A stretch of DNA of 30,349 nucleotides from Spirogloea muscicola (taxonomy: Eukaryota; Streptophyta; Zygnematophyceae; Spirogloeales; Spirogloeaceae). The stretch spans positions 442,992-473,340 of the forward strand of contig WELB01000035.1 of the NCBI GenBank assembly GCA_009602725.1, given 5' to 3'. The notes below the pieces were generated by a model. It was not told the origin of the DNA and searched no databases. It saw nothing but the letters and a program-made list of their open reading frames with translations. Both the position numbers and the translations under genes were made by a program. Positions 5,026-26,087 of this stretch are shown piece after piece; position 1 is the stretch's first letter, and each line of letters begins with the position of its first letter.

Positions 5026-5569
5026 ATTGCGGCTGGCCGTGCAGTCGCCCCATTTGGGTCAGGCTCTTCCAGCAGATGGCAATGGCTTGGCCAGCCCGGA
5101 AAGAGTGGACTAAATTCGAAGGGGCCAGAAAAGCGCTGGAGCAAACAGCGAACCCAGCGGCACTGCGTGCTGAAGATCCCCTGTTGAGCAGCCGTATGCC
5201 AGAGAAGCTCGGGCAGAGTCCGGCGTTCTTCTTTCTGCACGTAGTGCAGGGTTCTGGGTGTGGGAGGAGCAGTGGTTACAGCGTTCAGAGCGTGACGGGG
5301 TGCCTGGTCCTTGCGTCGGCAGTCAACGGCGGTCTCCGCGGGGGTCAGCGAAAGTCCTGCGCGGAAGTTGGCGCCGGGACGTGATGTCACGCTGGCCCCC
5401 TGGACGGCGCGCATGCGCCGTCGATAGAAAAGAATCGGACGGACGCCGCAAGCCCTTAAAACTGAGCCGTCGATCCAAGGCATCCGGCGGCTGCGCGCGA
5501 CAAGCGCCGGACTTCGGGGCCCCACGTGCGTCGGCGACGTCGCAGGCCAGTACCGTCGCAGCCTGCAGG

Positions 5570-5570
<1 letters not shown>

Positions 5571-5613
<43 letters not shown>
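5571..5613 (+). repeat. CCG triplet microsatellite upstream of the FAS1 kinase
   Basis: Uninterrupted 43-bp CCG repeat. A second run lies at 5853-5875. Depending on frame it reads as poly-Pro, poly-Ala or poly-Arg; the frame that leads into the FAS1 kinase reads poly-Arg here, which makes its coding status doubtful. Confidence 0.85.
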
Positions 5614-5617
<4 letters not shown>

Positions 5618-5726
5618 TGGCGAGGAAGGTATTTGTGTCGTACACCGGCCCCGCATCTTTCCTGGCGGACGGGGGGGGACCGGAGGCCACCGTGGCACCC
5701 GGCGCCCCTGAATCCCTCGGGCACCN

Positions 5727-8700
5727 GGCGGTGAGGGCGGCGCTGGCGGCGGCGCCGGGCGGGAGCTACGCCACCGCCGCGCGGCTCCTGGACGACAACG
5801 CCACCAGCGTCGGCCGCAGCTTCGGCCTCCAGGTCTTGGCCCGGGCTCTCGCCCGCCGCCGCCGCCGCCGCCGCTGCTGCCGGAGAAGCCATGGCCAGGA
5901 CGCTCCCGCAGCCAGAGCGCCGTAGCGGCAGTGAAGGCGCTGCCGTCCCATCTGAGAGCTCCATTGGCGCCATGGGCGGCGCCTTTAGCCCCGACGTTGC
6001 CGAGACGGCTTTGGGTCGACACGCCGTCTCGAGCCTGACGTCGGCGGCAGCGGCGGCGACGGCGGCGCAGGCGGGCCGGACGCTGTACGTGCCGGTGGAC
6101 GAGGCGTGGGCGGACCCGCATGGCCACTACGCCGCCGTGGCGGCGGCGTTGGCGGCGCAGGTCCCGGGCTTCGAGAATACCACCTTTCTGGCGCAGCTGC
6201 TGAGCTACCACATCGTCACGGAGCACTACAACATCTCCAAGCTCCAGGCGGAGTCGCGCGACCAGCCCCCGGAGGAGCTCGCCACGCTCGCGCCGCCCTC
6301 GACGCTGCTGCGCCTCCGCAACCAGACCGGCATCACGTTCCGGGACGAGTACAGCAGCCTGGCGTACATCACCGAGGTGCGGCGATGCCCGGGCCAGGCG
6401 GACGCTCCAATGCGGCTCAGCTACGTGTTTAGCTGAGCCGTATTGAGCTGCCCACAATTGGGACTGATTGTGAGAGCGCAGAGCGGCCATGGATGCAGCG
6501 CCGCGCATGGAGAAGCGGCTCGTCGAGGGCCCGGCCTTCGTGGGTCCTCCGCTTCTGAGTCGGGTGGCTCGGTCGGTGGCGCCTGCAGAGCATCTACGAT
6601 GATAAATCCCTGAGCGTGATGGGCTTCACGGCGGTGCTCATCCCCAACTACCAGCGGCTCGTGGGGTACGGGCAGCCCGTGCCGGTCATTGAGGGCTGGA
6701 CGCTCGTCTCGCAGGGCGGCAGCAGCGGCCTCTCGGCCGGCGCCGTCGCGGGCATCGTCATCGCCGCCGTGGTCGTCGCCGCCGCCCTCTGCTGCCTGCT
6801 CTTCGTCACCCTCTGCCGCCGCTCCTCCGGCAGTGGCACCTCTAAGTCCTTCCGCGACCTCGAGAAGGCTAAGCTCTACAGAGGTGGATGCACCTCCGGC
6901 AGCTTCCCGTCCACTGCCAGCTGCTAGCAATGTTCGCTCTTGCTCAGTAACTGAGGGCCGGCGCACGTCCACACTAACATCTGCAGCCAAGGAAGGCGAG
7001 GTGGCGAGCTAGCGAGACGCAGTACAGCTGGGGCCTGATGCTTGCTCGGTCGTGCATCCAGGGGACTCCGACTGGACATTCTTGCACTGCCAGAACTTCA
7101 CGGTGGAGGAGCTCGACACAGCCACAAAGCACTTCTCTGAGGATCTTGTGCTTGGTGAGGGCGGCTTCGGCAAGGTGTACAAGGGCGTGCTGAAGGACAG
7201 CAGGGAGGTGGCCGTCAAGATGGTAAGCAGTCCATGGCATCCCCGTTGCAATCCTGTGGTGCTAACAAGCTCGCTCGGAGAGCCGAGCAGCTACGGCGCG
7301 GACGGACTGGCGCTGCACGGAGCTTGCTGTGCCTCTCCTCAGCAACAAGCACGTGCATGGTCAGTGCCGCTCACGCTGTGAGGTTGCCGCGCACCACCAT
7401 GGCGGCAGATGCGGGAGGGCAGCAAGCAGGGGGTGAGCGAGTTCCGAGCAGAGCTGGACATCATCAGCCGGATCCACCACCGGCACCTCGTCGGCTTGCT
7501 GGGCGCGTGCCTCGCCAACGACCACCTGCTACTTGTCTATGACTACGTCCCGCACGGCAACCTCCATCAAAATCTCCACGGTGGGCAAACTTGCATGCTA
7601 GACCCTACTCGCCAATTGCATGATGGATATCCTAAGCATCAGATACATGGATACTTGATCATTCTGGTCAGTCGCGCTTGCTGAGCAGCATGGTGGCTGC
7701 AACTCTCCTTCTAGTAGCAGCTTGGTTTGCTTTGCAAGCACAACATGCCTATGCAGCAAGCAATTGCTGCCGTGGCAAGGGCAACTTGTCTAGCCAAAGC
7801 TTGACCAAGCCTGTCCCCCCTGCACTGTGCATGATGCTTGGCGCGAGCAGAGAAGCACATGGACTGGGCCACGCGGATGAAGGTCGCCCGCGGCGCTGCC
7901 CGAGGCATCGCCTACCTCCATGAAGATTGTGAGCATCCAGAACCTTCGCTGCTCTGCTGACCCGGTCACATCCGCTGTGCTTTCTGGAACTATGCCAACA
8001 GTCGTCAAGTGAGAAGGACAAGCAGCGTATGGTCATACTTGCTGGGAATTGAGCTGTTACTTGGCGTCTGAGCAGGCAATCCGAGGATCATCCACCGAGA
8101 CATCAAGGCCCCTAATATTCTGCTTGATGCCCAAGATGAGGCCTTGGTACTGCTTTTACTACCACATCTCTTTCATCAGCAAGTTGCAGGTCGTCATCGA
8201 TAATTTGTCGGGAGATTGTGGCTACACAGTGCATGATACTCCAGAAAAGCCATCAGTCACTTAGCTGCTGAGTCTCACTGGTGCAGGTGGCCGACTTTGG
8301 CCTTGCCAAGCTCGCTGACGACATGTTGAGCCACATCACCACCCGTGTCATGGGTACCTTTGGGTCAGTCCACCAAAGAGGATAACATAGATCTTCCGGC
8401 TGCAAAGCTTGTCTATTCGACTGAGAGCGGGTGTCAGAGCATGCGCCACTCATGTCGATAAGGAAATTGCTGTTGGGCATGTTTCACAAGGAGGCATGTC
8501 TCAAGTGTTCTTCTTCTAAGGCGCTCCTGCGTGGTCTGCCACAGTTACCTTGCCCCAGAGTATGCCTTGACCGGGAAGGTGTCAGAGAAGGCAGATGTGT
8601 TCTCCTTCGGGGTTGTGCTGCTTGAGCTCATCACAGGCAAGAAGCCTGTGGACATGACGCAGCCGCCAGGCAAAGAGAGCTTAGTCATCTGGGTGAGCAT

Positions 8701-9680
8701 TGCCCCCTTCCTGTCTCCTCGTAGAGTCACTGGAGTTTTCTGTGCCTGCTTAAAGCTGCTGGAAGCTCCATCTTAAACTTTCCGATCTCATTGCAGGACA
8801 ATACCTTGTAGTATAATACTTCTTTCTGTTTGCGTCTCTCTCTCTGTCTGCATCAATTTCAGCTTGCTTTGACACTTACTTTTATCGTCTGCACCCATAT
8901 GTGCAGGCTAGGCCCATGCTTGTGAGTGAACGTTTTGAGGAGCTTGTGGACCCCTTGCTTGCTGGAGATTACGACAGCGCCGAGCTCAATACCATTGCAG
9001 CCGCCGCAGCACTGTGCGTCCAGGACGACTCCCAGCTTCGCCCTCCCATGGGCAAGGTGAGCATCTTGTCCCAGATGGTAAATAGTGTACTTGTCTGTGC
9101 ACCATGTTGTCTGTCATCTGTCCATCGCCTCCGTACATACACAAGAAGCTCGTTTTTGCCTCCATGCATGCACAAGAAGCCTATCAGCAGGCCTTATTCG
9201 ATTGCAGCCTTCTCAAAAGCATGGTAGCTCGGCGGCAACTTATTGGGGCTTTGCGTGCAATTTGGCCCTATCTTGGCACACCTCCTTGTCCATAGGACAG
9301 GACTTCTTCAGCCATCCTGCACTTAGCATAGAAACTAAGAGATCTACATTTGTTTGTCAAGCACTTGCAAAGAAATACAGAATGCAGTGTCTGGTTCTGC
9401 AATGTGCTGAATGCTTGGAGATCTGCTCACTGCTGCTGCTGCTTCACAGATCTCGAGCTTCCTTGAGGGGGATGCTCTGTCCAGGGAGAGCAGCCTAGGT
9501 TCACTATCACAGGCGCGGCTCTTCATGGAGTCGCCTGTTCGGGACCCCAATGGTAACACAATGGACTTTGAGCGATTCAAGACGATGGCCAAGCAGAACG
9601 TCTTCAACAGTGACTCTGCTGCCTCCAAAGAGTCTTCTGGGCAGGCCAAGAGCCCCCTCACACAAGTCCTGCCGCGATGA
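5727..9680 (+). CDS. FAS1-domain receptor-like kinase, PERK-class kinase domain, 5' unresolved
   Basis: Predicted plasma-membrane receptor kinase with a cell-adhesion-type ectodomain. Firm exons in phase: (about 5891 or 5912)-6376, 6589-6883, 7062-7222, 7409-7580, 7851-7928, 8076-8146, 8287-8363, 8545-8692, 8907-9056, 9450-9680 (TGA). The ectodomain shows fasciclin boxes: LYVPVDEAW (H1-like), [11 protein letters not shown] (YH motif) and a closing MGFTAVLIP. One hydrophobic helix ([19 protein letters not shown], about 6748-6804) is followed by CRR. The kinase is complete: [49 protein letters not shown]; it is an RD kinase closest to PERKs by eye. A probable upstream exon (about 5727-5832, [19 protein letters not shown]) ends at a GT donor in phase 0. 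No ATG or signal peptide was found in its frame and an N lies at 5726, so the start is open. The C-terminal tail (from about 9480) is Ser-rich. Confidence 0.82.
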
Positions 9681-10505
9681 GGCCACATAAATATCGTGCC
9701 CAATCATACGCCCACCATTCCTTCATTGTTTACTCCAGCCTGCACTTGACTTCAAGCAATTGCAGCTCACAGATCGTGCTACTAAGAGCAGGTGAAGCAT
9801 GTAATCAGCTAATTCTGACTGAGACCCCTCATAGAAGGGCCGTGACAGATTGATGCACAATCAAGTGAGGCTGCAGTGCCGGCTGTCAAAACTTGCCTAC
9901 ACTCGTTGGAGCTGCTTCTTGCACCCTGAGCAAAAGCCGCTTTGTGGTCTTCGAAGCGTTCTATTGCTAAATACATAGCAAACAAGTCAGTCATAAGCTG
10001 GTGTTAAGAATGACATACTACCCTCTCAGTCTTCCAACCACCCTAGGACCAGTGCTTCGACATCCGCCTGTGATGCACACAGGGTAGAAGTTCCCATCTG
10101 TCAGCGAGGCTACTTTGTGCCAGTGGATACATGTACAGCTGCTTTTGCTGGGCGACAGCTGCTTAGGCCGAGTGACACTGGGAGGGACGGAAGCGGTCGT
10201 GTCATTCGCCCCGTCAGGGGGGTGGACGCGGCCACGGAGGCCAAGTCCGCCTGACGTGCGGAACCACCCCTTAAGCCCCACCAGGTCGGATGGGCAAAGA
10301 TATTGAAAGCGCCCGGCACGTCAGCTGCTGCCATGGCAGCCGCCAGCCGCAGCTGCGCCGCCGACGACTGCGGGACTGCGGCGGCCTTGGCGATGGGGCT
10401 GGCGCTATGGCAGCGCTGCGGGCGAAGGGGAGGCTGGTGGCGGGTTTTCGTATATCTGGGGTGGGGCGGGTGCCAGCTGTCACTTCTCGGCAGCCCGGGG
10501 GCGGG
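9681..10505. other. Intergenic, left of the MITE
   Basis: Contains the kinase 3' UTR, then GC-rich sequence without a recognisable gene. The first copy of a 32-bp direct repeat is at 10134-10165. Confidence 0.5.
10134..10165 (+). repeat. Direct repeat, copy 1 of 2 (32 bp)
   Basis: Begins tacagctgcttttgctg and ends gacagctgctta. The second copy at 11148-11179 differs by one base. The two lie 1,014 bp apart and bracket the MITE and GC-rich flanks. Confidence 0.75.
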
Positions 10506-10507
10506 TA

Positions 10508-10961
10508 CAGTCATACCTTGTTATAGGCACGTCGGCCAGTTTGGCGAAAATATGTGACTATATCGAGGTGTGCTTGTTCGTTGTAGAGGCACTATTGCCC
10601 CCAAATGTGCTTCCACCGTGACAATCAGCAATATATGAAATTATATTGAAAAATGGGCTTTTTGGGTTTAGGTTTAGGGTTAGGATTCAAAAACTAGACC
10701 TAAACCCTAAACCCCACACCCTAAACCCTAAACCTCAATCCTAATCCCTGTAGAGAATAGGCGAGATATGTTGATTTGTTTTCATATAGGCACTTCTAGT
10801 GGGGAAATCTGCCCCGGAAAACTGTGCCTGTACATAGCGGCACGTTCCCTTATCGAGTCACATTTGCCTGGGGAAAAAAGTGCATCCCGCAAAATGGTGC
10901 CACTATCCAAAATATGCCAAAACGTGCCCTTATCTTGGGGTGCCTATAAAAGGTATGACTG
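10508..10961. mobile_element. 454-bp non-autonomous DNA transposon (MITE), TA target duplication
   Basis: Imperfect terminal inverted repeats: left 10508-10530 and right 10940-10961, differing by one extra base. Both ends read CAGTCATACCTT inward, and each end is flanked by TA (10506-10507 and 10962-10963). TA duplication plus a CAGT terminus is the usual signature of the Tc1/mariner superfamily, so that assignment is inferred. There is no transposase ORF. Motifs resembling ATAGGCAC or AAGGGCACG recur inside in both orientations (near 10521, 10587, 10787, 10839, 10895, 10924, 10940), as expected of subterminal binding repeats. The middle carries inverted telomere-like repeats. Confidence 0.8.
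10661..10748. repeat. Inverted telomere-like repeats (TTTAGGG then CCCTAAA)
   Basis: About 26 bp of degenerate TTTAGGG units (10661-10686), a 12-bp spacer, then about 50 bp of CCCTAAA units (10699-10748). The G-rich strand runs toward the C-rich strand, so the two arms can form a hairpin. It lies entirely inside the MITE. Confidence 0.8.
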
Positions 10962-11147: not shown

Positions 11148-11179
11148 TACAGCTGCTTTTGCTGAGCGACAGCTGCTTA
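11148..11179 (+). repeat. Direct repeat, copy 2 of 2 (32 bp)
   Basis: One mismatch to 10134-10165, same orientation. Sequence outside the copies shows only weak similarity. Confidence 0.75.
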
Positions 11180-11255: not shown

Positions 11256-11349
11256 CATGCTGTTCTCCATTGTGATGTGAGTGGCAGCAGCCCTGTCAAG
11301 TACATGCTGTTCTCCATTGTGATGTGAGTGGTAGCAGCACTGTCAAGTG
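11256..11349 (+). repeat. Tandem duplication, 47-bp unit, two copies
   Basis: Units 11256-11302 and 11303-11349 begin with catgctgttctcc and differ at three positions. This is a recent local duplication in intergenic DNA. Confidence 0.85.
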
Positions 11350-11554: not shown

Positions 11555-14500
11555 TTACCAGATGCTGGGCATGCGCTCGATGGCGGGGGATAGCTGGGCA
11601 ACTCTGCAGTCTCGGGGGTGGCCAGGCGTCGAAGAGCGAGCGCTCTGTTTGGCCAAGTTGCTTGGCCGGTCAAAGCCGTCGACAGAGTCGTAAAAGTGCT
11701 CGTGTGAGGGAGGGTTGGAGAAGGCGGAGGTAAGGGGAGGGTCGCCTGCCGGCGCTTGATGTGTGTCCTGAGGCGGCTCCACAGCAGCCGAAGCGGCAGA
11801 GGGTGTGTCAACGTGTCCCTGCGCAGATTGCTGCAGAAGGCTGGTGGTCGCTGGTCAAGTAGAGACCCTGCAACAATGGCTGCCAGTGCCAACACTACAC
11901 TGCAACTGAGCTTGCCAGAATGAGCTGCTTACTCGAAGCACTACTTCACAGGTTGGGATTTTCGACATTGCTCGCTTGCTGTGCTGACTGACCTGGGCTG
12001 CAAGCTGCCGGATGATCTCCTGGGAGGCGCGGCGGAGGTCGGCGCTGCTGTTGTCCCCGCAGCTAAGGCTTGCCAGCTGGTCAAGGAGTGTCTGGAGCGC
12101 CTGGCCACCCACAGAAGGCAGCAGCGATGGCAGAGGCCGCAATGGCGCCCCAGCTGGTCCGGTTATCAGGTCCGGTCTCAGAAAGGGGTGCTGCGCAAGC
12201 ATGAGGGTGGCGCAAGCCGTCAGCTGCCATATTGCGACTGCCGCTACATTTCAGTGAGCGAATTTGATCCACAAAGCCTGAAAATAAGACCTTGTCTTTG
12301 CACTACACATATTTTTCTAGTGGCTCATCAGAAGGCGCCTGTAGGACCTGGAGGAGCTCCGGAATAGTGATCCGCGCTGCCGGATCGCGGTTGAGGCAGC
12401 GTCGCAGACAGTCGAGGAGCCAGGGGTTGGGCACTGGCCGGAACTCAATCTCGTGGCTACCGCTCACTATTGCCTGCAGCTTTGCGATGACGCCAAGGTG
12501 CGAGAACGGCGTCTGCTTTGCAAAATGCACAAGCCAAGATTCTGATCAGGCAGATTCTTTTTCCAGGCTGAAAGATGGTCATTATGAACCTCCTCTGCTC
12601 CTCAGTCAACTGAGCAGGTCAATTCAGCAGCCCACAATGGGCTCTCTTGAAGAATGGTGGCCAACCTGGCCATAGACCATCTGGTACAGGATGCAGCCAA
12701 GCGACCAGATGTCGGTTGCACGGCCAACGCGGATGCCGCCCGTCGGAGCGTCCCCGCCGGCACTACGTCCATTGCCAACGATTGCCTCGGGTGACATGTA
12801 ATTGAGCGTGCCCACCTGCGCAGGAGCGGCCCAGCCGCCGCCAGCGGCAGGCTTCACTTGAGCTACCACCCCGAGATGTGACTTGTTTCCAGCCTTGCTA
12901 GACCATTAGCATTTCCATGGCTTTGCTTGTCACACTTATATGGTCAATAGTAGTAGTTGTCCAATTTGTGACAGGGAAGCAATTAGGTTGGCCAACCTGC
13001 GTCTCACGGACAATGTTGGTGGTATCGCTTTGCAGCGCACGCGCTATGCCGAAATCAATGAGCTTCAGCTCGCCCTCGACTAGCAGAAAGTTGGCAGGCT
13101 TCAGATCCGAGTGCACAATGCGCTCCTCGTGGATTGTGTGCACAGCCTCCAGCATATTCTGCGGTAAGTTGTGTTGCCGGCTTCAGCGTAATCAGCCACA
13201 CTGTGAGACAGCCGCTGCTCGGGCGCAGACACACTCAAGCTGAGCCCTGCCATGGAGCATACCTGCCAGTAGAGTCGCACAAAGTTGTCGCTGATCCGAG
13301 GGAAGCAGCTGGAGGGAGTGCCGACACCGTCGTCGCAGGCCCGCTGCATCTTCGTCAGCAGACGCGCGAGGTCGATCTCGCCAAACTCCAGCACCAGGAG
13401 GATGAGGCCTTCCCGCTCCGCGACCTGGCAGCAGCGAGCGTGTCAGGACAAGAGGGAGGAGAACAGGGCGGCAGTCATACGGCGCGGCTGCTGCCAGAAC
13501 GTCGCCACTGAATCGACTCCTGATGACATAACGGCACTGCAGGAGAGCCTCCATGCGACGGCCCTCCCAAGCCTCTCACCTCAGAGTCAATGAGCTGCAC
13601 GATATTGCGCTTGCCGCGCAGGCGGTGCAGCAGCGTGGCCTCCTCACGAAACCCCCGTGCCGAGTCGGCGTCGCGCCCAGCCAGCCGGATGCGCTTGAGG
13701 GCATACACGTCGCGGCTCGGCGCCACCACCTTGTAGACCTTGCTGCTCCCGCCCTTCCCAATGACACTGAGCTTCTGGTACGCCGTCCCGTTGACCACCA
13801 ACGTGTTGTCGTCCTCTCGCAAGGCAGGCTTGGGATTGGACCGCGGTGGCGCTGCAGCTGGCGGGAGGGCCGGCGGCTGCTGGTTGCTGGCTTGCACCCT
13901 CTTGAGAGGCTCAGCGGCGGCCTTCCCTAGATGACCTGCGGAGGAAGGGGCCTCCGTCTGCTGCCGACTTGGTGGCGGCTGCTGCGCGCACTCCCAGGCA
14001 GAGGACGGCACTCCCTGAAGCGGATCTGCCGCGGCGCAGCTGGCAGCTGCCCTGCCGCCGCCGTCGGCGCTGGGCGTAGGCGCCAGCATGCGGGCCAGGA
14101 GCTCCTCGTCAGTGGGCAGCCGGTCGGCGTGCGGCAGCGACAGCGGCAGCTGCCGCACCAGCAGGAGCCGCTCCCGCTGCCTCTGCCTCTCCCGCTCGCC
14201 GCCGCGCCACCTCTCCCTCTCCTCCTCCCTCCCAACCTCCCTCCTCCCCACCTCATCCTCCATCCTCTCGCTCTCCCTCTTGCTACTCCTCGCTGTGTCT
14301 GCCTCCCTCTCCCTCCCCCTGTCGCTCGCTGTCTCGGGCTCCATCTCCTTCCCCTCTCCTGGCGCTCCGTCCCACAGGGCTTCTGCACGCCTCCCCGCAT
14401 GATCTAGCTCTGCCGGCACGTGCGGTGCTCTCTCCTCCTTTCTCCGGTCCATAGCTTCCACCTCTGGCGCTTGCTCGCGGAGTCTCGCAGCGTCGTGATC

Positions 14501-15452
14501 TGGAGGCCCTTTGGCCCGCTCTTCCAAGCTCTGTGACGTTGTCGGCGTCTCCTTGGCAGGTTGCTCGGCAGCGAGCTCGTCCTTGGACTTGACGACGCGC
14601 CGCGCCGGCCCTGACGACAGGAGGCTGCCTGCTACCACAGCATCAATGTGCAGATCCATCAGAAAAGTTCCATCACTCAAAGCCATTCTGAGAGACCTGA
14701 GCTCACGACCGTTAGCAGTGTCGCCAGTAACCAGCGATAGGCTCACCCCAACGCTTGGCCGGCTTGCGGTGGCTCGCGGTCATCGAGGAGCTGCCGGCCT
14801 TCTCGACAGACTCGGCACCACCGCCGGTGCCGGCTTCGACGTTCCGCGGCCTAAGGCTTGGGAGAGGCGTGACGTCGGGAGCGTTGCCACTGCCCCCGAC
14901 TGCGGCAGTAGCGGTTGTGGCAGCAGCTATCGGATGCACCAGCGGCGTCTGGTGCAGGGCCTCGCCGCCGACGGCGCCTATGGCGGCGGCCGGGTCAGGC
15001 CGCGGCGTGTGGAGGTCCACGGTGTCGTCCTCGGTGCTGCTGCTGCCGCCACTGCCGCCGCCGGAGCTGCTGCTCCCAGTGGTCATCATGGACGTCGAGG
15101 AGCGGGAGTACGACGAGGCGCTGCGCCCGGCGCTCCGCCCCGCAGCGGCCGCGCTGCCGCCGCCGCCGCCGTGGTGCTCGAAGACCGTCTCCAGCACCGG
15201 CGTGCGCGACTTGGTCGCCTGGAAGTGCTGCAGGTTCTGCCGCAGCTTCACCTCCCACGACGGCGGCGGCGGCGGCGCGGGGGCGGAGGAGGCCGTCGCC
15301 GCGCCGCCCGCAGTCTGCNTGGCTCAGCAGCACAGGCGGGCAGGTAGGTGGCGATGCCCAGCGGCGGTCAGGCGGCGGCCAAGGAACGGGACCTGCGACG
15401 GACCTGCTTCCGGAGGGCCCGGGGAGCAGTCGTGGCGACGGCGGCGGCGGCG

Positions 15453-15488
<36 letters not shown>

Positions 15489-26049: not shown

Positions 26050-26087
<38 letters not shown>

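Follow-up and report, generated by a model that had tools for sequence, protein, structure and literature searches.

The window analysed here is a stretch of 30,349 nucleotides from the streptophyte alga Spirogloea muscicola (contig WELB01000035.1). Its + strand carries a spliced gene model of 11 exons (5632–9680), in which a single open reading frame (629 residues and a stop codon) leads from a FAS1 region through a membrane (TM) helix into a kinase domain. Exon borders were set by eye on the sequence and then verified by script; all 10 introns begin with GT and end with AG, and each would bring an in-frame stop into the reading frame if retained. The ectodomain is encoded by the first three exons, all on the + strand like the remainder of the model. 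Exon 1 (5632–5832) holds the N-terminal part of FAS1, has an uncertain 5′ end and includes a single N at 5726. Exon 2 (6071–6376) holds the FAS1 core, with a 10-residue motif and the motif LSYHIV, which we take to be the H1-like and YH motifs, respectively. Exon 3 (6589–6883) carries the end of FAS1 (GFTAVLIPN), a short linker, the TM helix, basic residues and the juxtamembrane part. The kinase follows on the same strand: exon 4 (7062–7222) contains the end of the juxtamembrane part and the kinase N-lobe, exon 5 (7409–7580) helix C and further N-lobe, exon 6 (7851–7928) kinase C-lobe, exon 7 (8076–8146) the catalytic loop HRDIKAPN, exon 8 (8287–8363) the DFG motif and activation segment, exon 9 (8545–8692) the APE motif and C-lobe, exon 10 (8907–9056) the end of the kinase C-lobe, and exon 11 (9450–9680) the C-terminal tail and the stop codon.

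The 5′ end of the model is incomplete. The preliminary description began the gene at 5727, immediately 3′ of the N at 5726; upstream of this point the frame runs on and stays open back to 5428 without an ATG, and at least one exon is therefore missing upstream of exon 1. The start at 5632 is an arbitrary point, and the frame 5′ of position 5726 is uncertain because of the single N. Among the best 12 ATG candidates between 3301 and 5830, none offered a start codon with a convincing signal peptide. Just upstream of exon 1 on the + strand lies a CCG repeat (5571–5613), which the preliminary description had connected with a PERK-like proline-rich segment that was replaced or extended. That idea was dropped: the repeat encodes poly-Arg in the FAS1 frame, and its poly-Pro frame (ORF 5466–5711) runs into a stop ahead of the N at 5726. 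The repeat is probably non-coding 5′ sequence. Other CCG-type runs occur in the window at 53–83, 350–397, 15434–15488 and 26052–26087, and one of these precedes a FIGL1 N-terminal domain by about 600 bases. The best reading of the repeat is GC-rich 5′ sequence belonging to this genome.

Codon-position periodicity of GC was scored by chi2 for eight of the 11 exons and five of the 10 introns. The values were 12.0, 63.8, 42.3, 30.0 and 41.9 for exons 1–5 and 12.5, 8.7 and 6.4 for exons 9–11, against 0.4, 0.4, 6.6, 2.3 and 1.1 for introns 1–5. Exons and introns separate clearly around exons 2–5 and more weakly at exons 9–11; the stretch 5428–5631 was low (3.2). Pfam, searched up to E 1, matched none of three antisense ORFs overlapping this DNA, nor did it match one hand-made scramble, and a scan of the window with Rfam (gathering threshold) and for tRNAs returned nothing. 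A TGTAA lies 3′ of the stop codon at 9800; with 26 occurrences in the window against 25.75 expected, this motif shows no enrichment, and AATAAA was matched twice in the window against 3.93 expected.

The FAS1 assignment was examined with several profiles and with pieces of the protein. Pfam Fasciclin (PF02469) matched the joined protein at E 5.8e-5 and 23.7 bits, only 1.7 bits above the curated cut-off of 22, over positions 14–123 of the 123-position profile. The hand-mapped match covers model residues 59–188, that is 5806–6645 on the + strand, and spans the introns at 5833–6070 and 6377–6588. The piece that comprises the ectodomain alone scored 26.0 bits (E 1.2e-5) and also reached the end of the profile, exons 1 and 2 together scored 25.5 bits, and exon 2 by itself scored 23.6 bits and thus passed the cut-off. 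The last FAS1 part adds only 0.5 bits, so exon 2 carries most of the FAS1 call.

A different reading of these data is that the ectodomain is Ala-rich extracellular sequence with a resemblance but no relationship to FAS1, which would leave an RLK with an orphan ectodomain. The modest Pfam score is compatible with such a reading, as are the results with a narrow profile made from 80 FAS1 sequences of prokaryotes. With that profile the score was 8.4 bits for the spliced ectodomain and 6.4 bits for the full spliced protein, the latter non-significant and exceeded by the best of 1000 shuffles (6.8 bits); the exon-2 ORF nevertheless ranked first among the 660 ORFs of the window (E 0.03, 11.5 bits). 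Profile alignment with hhalign gave FAS1 a probability of 35% (E 0.0004), and a kinase control came out at 0.2% (E 0.28). AlphaFold, run on contiguous exon 2 alone without relatives, returned a low-confidence model (pLDDT 51.2) that is uninformative on the fold, and a phmmer search of the ectodomain against PDB sequences gave no match better than E 0.32. Set against these points are the above-threshold Pfam match that extends to the profile end, the pass of exon 2 by itself and the first rank of its ORF, and we regard an orphan ectodomain as unlikely. From sequence, the FAS1 domain is very probably a real but weak match. One sub-threshold NCBIfam match was recorded on the ectodomain (14 bits, cut-off 200), and scanning viral_contigs for relatives of the FAS1 exon gave none.

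The composition of the 213-residue ectodomain was also analysed. Four of the five N-X-S/T sequons of the model fall within it, and the fifth lies in the juxtamembrane part. It contains 15 Pro; AP occurs four times, PA once and VP three times, SP and TP are absent, and AGP-type glycomotifs were accordingly not found. No SPP motif occurs in the model, with the ectodomain as modelled from exon 1 on, and within the same limits a PERK-type proline-rich ectodomain with Ser-Pro3-5 motifs was not found.

Behind the ectodomain, hydropathy reveals a single TM peak of 19 residues (residues 224–242, hand-mapped to 6751–6807 on the + strand), with a mean Kyte-Doolittle value of 3.04 and RR shortly after it. 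Segments of 19 residues exceed 1.6 only if they start at residues 213–231. One helix thus lies between ectodomain and kinase, as in an RLK; a GPI-anchor layout was not found, as the hydrophobic helix is internal and followed by 387 model residues.

The intracellular part is a kinase of the RLK/Pelle type, matched by Pfam PK_Tyr_Ser-Thr on the joined protein at E 2.6e-46. The glycine loop, the VAVK lysine, HRD, DFG and APE are intact, and with the motifs present through APE we expect the predicted kinase to be an active one of the RD type. Its best solved relatives are plant RLK/Pelle kinases, namely 5xd6 (256.8 bits), which we take to be CARK1, and BAK1 (256.1 bits); among the best 60 of 2637 solved matches, IRAK4 appears lower down and no molecule is named PERK. 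Closer affinity was assessed by pairwise comparison with four references, of which the AtPERK1 and ALE2 sequences were provisional and the BAK1 and CARK1 sequences were taken from PDB. Identity was highest to the provisional AtPERK1 kinase domain (166/281, 59%, 343 bits), followed by the provisional ALE2 (147/281, 52%, 323 bits) and by BAK1 (131/281, 256.7 bits) and CARK1 (127/271, 255.2 bits), at 47% each. An ALE2/extensin-type kinase had been considered for the common VDMxQPxGxExLVxWARP block and was set aside on its score below PERK1, both of these sequences being provisional. The assignment to the PERK class made in the preliminary description thus agrees with the 59% identity to the provisional AtPERK1 sequence, and 'PERK-like' appears to be the best label for the kinase, as judged by pairwise identity to references of which two of four were provisional.

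Whether ectodomain and kinase belong to one gene was examined at exon 3 and the intron behind it. The end of FAS1, the linker, the TM helix and the juxtamembrane part are encoded together in this exon (6589–6883), and intron 3 (6884–7061, 178 bases) has a GT donor, a CAG acceptor and a fitting phase. Two genes could be proposed instead: a FAS1-TM protein ending within intron 3 and a separate PERK-like kinase downstream. Read-through of intron 3 would indeed reach a stop at 6925 after a short cytoplasmic tail, and the chi2 of this intron (6.6) is intermediate and on a par with that of exon 11. GC3 drops from 0.90–0.97 in exons 1–3 to 0.61–0.86 in exons 4–11, which could mark different origins; the drop would fit an ordinary 5′-to-3′ gradient as well as the trace of a fusion. 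Against two genes stand the splice sites and fitting phase of intron 3 and the lack of an ATG before 7220, already within the kinase, in the ORF of the kinase exon (7013–7381). A separate kinase gene would therefore need another first exon, which might lie unseen; on balance the two-gene arrangement is improbable. As an observation on the same intron, a transcript that retains it would be read on over 6884–6927 and encode a FAS1-TM protein whose short tail is closed by the stop at 6925, a possible kinase-less isoform.

A fusion could also be produced artificially if unrelated contigs had been joined during assembly. The window has three single Ns, at 5726, 15319 and 20887, each within GC-rich DNA; they are in keeping with this explanation and may mark assembly joins. 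The N at 5726 lies upstream of the Pfam FAS1 match, though, the FAS1 end and the TM helix share one uninterrupted exon, and the 178-base intron between TM and kinase contains no N; a mis-join is thus very improbable as the source of the fusion. The Ns at 5726 and 15319 lie 113 and 115 bases, respectively, from the CCG-type runs at 5571–5613 and 15434–15488.

At the level of the gene model, a single gene that encodes FAS1, the TM helix and the kinase is confirmed. The preliminary description had proposed FAS1, a TM helix and a full RD kinase in one phase-consistent gene, and this proposal is borne out by the 11 exons, the 10 GT–AG introns and the two Pfam matches, Fasciclin (23.7 bits) and PK_Tyr_Ser-Thr (2.6e-46), on the same spliced chain. 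With a probability that we put at roughly 0.8, the predicted protein is a type I membrane receptor-like kinase, with FAS1 outside, one helix and a PERK-like RD kinase inside.

The surrounding window is eukaryotic in look, with short exons and GT–AG introns. Neighbouring ORFs matched the Alg9-like mannosyltransferase family, the FIGL1 N-terminal domain, an AAA ATPase, a protein kinase, TPR repeats and ANAPC8. About 1 kb 3′ of the kinase stop, a short array of the plant-type telomere-like unit CCTAAAC was found at 10699–10749, flanked by a 32-base direct repeat (10134–10165 and 11148–11179, 97% identical, about 1 kb apart); repeat and array together are possibly a small inserted element. A 47-base unit in tandem duplication follows at 11256–11348 (95% matches). 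A second protein kinase gene lies in pieces on the − strand (12624–14779) and may be TTK/MPS1-like. Its ORFs 12624–12905 and 12898–13182 scored above the Pfam Pkinase cut-off, and ORF 13475–14779 fell just under it (31.6 against 31.7).

In function, the predicted protein is best read as a candidate wall- or matrix-sensing RLK with a swapped ectodomain, in effect an FLA and an RLK on one chain. Land plants build such wall signalling from separate FLA and RLK proteins, as with FLA4 and FEI1/2. The predicted layout is that of a receptor, and FAS1 proteins are described as binders of matrix partners (PMC6032426). By analogy to FLA4–FEI1/2, we propose that the FAS1 domain would bind a partner in the wall or matrix, which could be a polysaccharide, a glycoprotein or another FAS1 protein, and that this binding, or tension, would cluster the receptors. 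The clustered kinases would then trans-phosphorylate each other on the activation segment, and the outcome would be a direct signal from the wall to the cytoplasm.

Such a protein would bear on the question of how FAS1 proteins such as FLA4 signal inward, where genetics points to RLKs and direct coupling has been deduced. If true, a fusion of FAS1 with an RLK kinase that occurs in nature would be evidence that coupling on one chain works, and it would provide a compact protein for testing ligand and kinase activation. It would likewise add an ectodomain class to those of the RLKs that originated before land plants or alongside them. More tentatively, and with less confidence than we would give to its opposite, the gene might represent a lineage-specific class of algal wall-sensing receptors that hold FAS1 and a PERK-type kinase in covalent linkage. 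Such receptors would do on a single chain, as a precursor or in parallel, what land plants do with the two proteins of FLA–RLK signalling; the fusion would then serve as Rosetta-stone evidence of physical coupling between FAS1 and kinase.

The predicted protein can be compared with several known systems. It shares with PERKs the TM topology and the kinase sequence (59% to the provisional AtPERK1 sequence), whereas FAS1 occupies the place of the SPP motifs and the proline-rich ectodomain in this model. It shares with FLAs, such as FLA4/SOS5, an extracellular FAS1 domain with N-glycosylation sequons, but has a TM helix and a kinase in place of the GPI anchor and has no AGP-type proline regions in the model. 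To our knowledge, the cytosolic tails of stabilins and SpFsc1 carry no kinase domain. The passages of PMC6032426 on these proteins describe them as type I TM FAS1 proteins with a cytosolic tail, and the combination of FAS1 domain(s), TM helix and cytosolic part is common to them and the present model.

A departure from the PERK layout is also documented in another streptophyte alga. The Klebsormidium proteins kfl00031_0230 and kfl00671_0010p are presented in the relevant part of PMC4769139 as PERK-similar but off the PERK structure, and the resemblance to our model lies in this deviant structure of PERK-similar proteins in a streptophyte alga; they differ in being classed as chimeric extensins, and the word 'fasciclin' occurs 0 times in the main text of that article. 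The relevant section of PMC12820192 assigns plant FAS1 domains almost exclusively to FLAs. PMC10834447 lists the main RLK ectodomains, and 'fasciclin' is absent from its main text and from that of PMC10868138. In the portion of PMC10868138 concerned, the chlorophytes shown have 1 to about 4 RLKs; among the streptophyte algae listed, five have 75 to about 435 and four others 6 to 14. By themselves, these numbers would point to a streptophyte alga as the likely origin of the window. Kinase-bearing chimeric AGPs are listed in PMC5266747, and no FAS1-kinase fusion was seen in the portions available of that article or of PMC6514703, in which 'kinase' appears twice; nor was one described in the open-access literature, among the matches listed and as far as their accessible text goes. 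The FAS1-TM-kinase architecture may well sit unremarked in databases. A further parallel comes from Arabidopsis, where, in the account given in the pertinent part of PMC6032426, FLA4 and the RLKs FEI1/2 work in one genetic pathway. A FAS1 domain and an RLK kinase are paired in both cases, there through one genetic pathway (PMC6032426) between two proteins of which the FEIs are LRR-RLKs, and here on one predicted chain with a PERK-like kinase.
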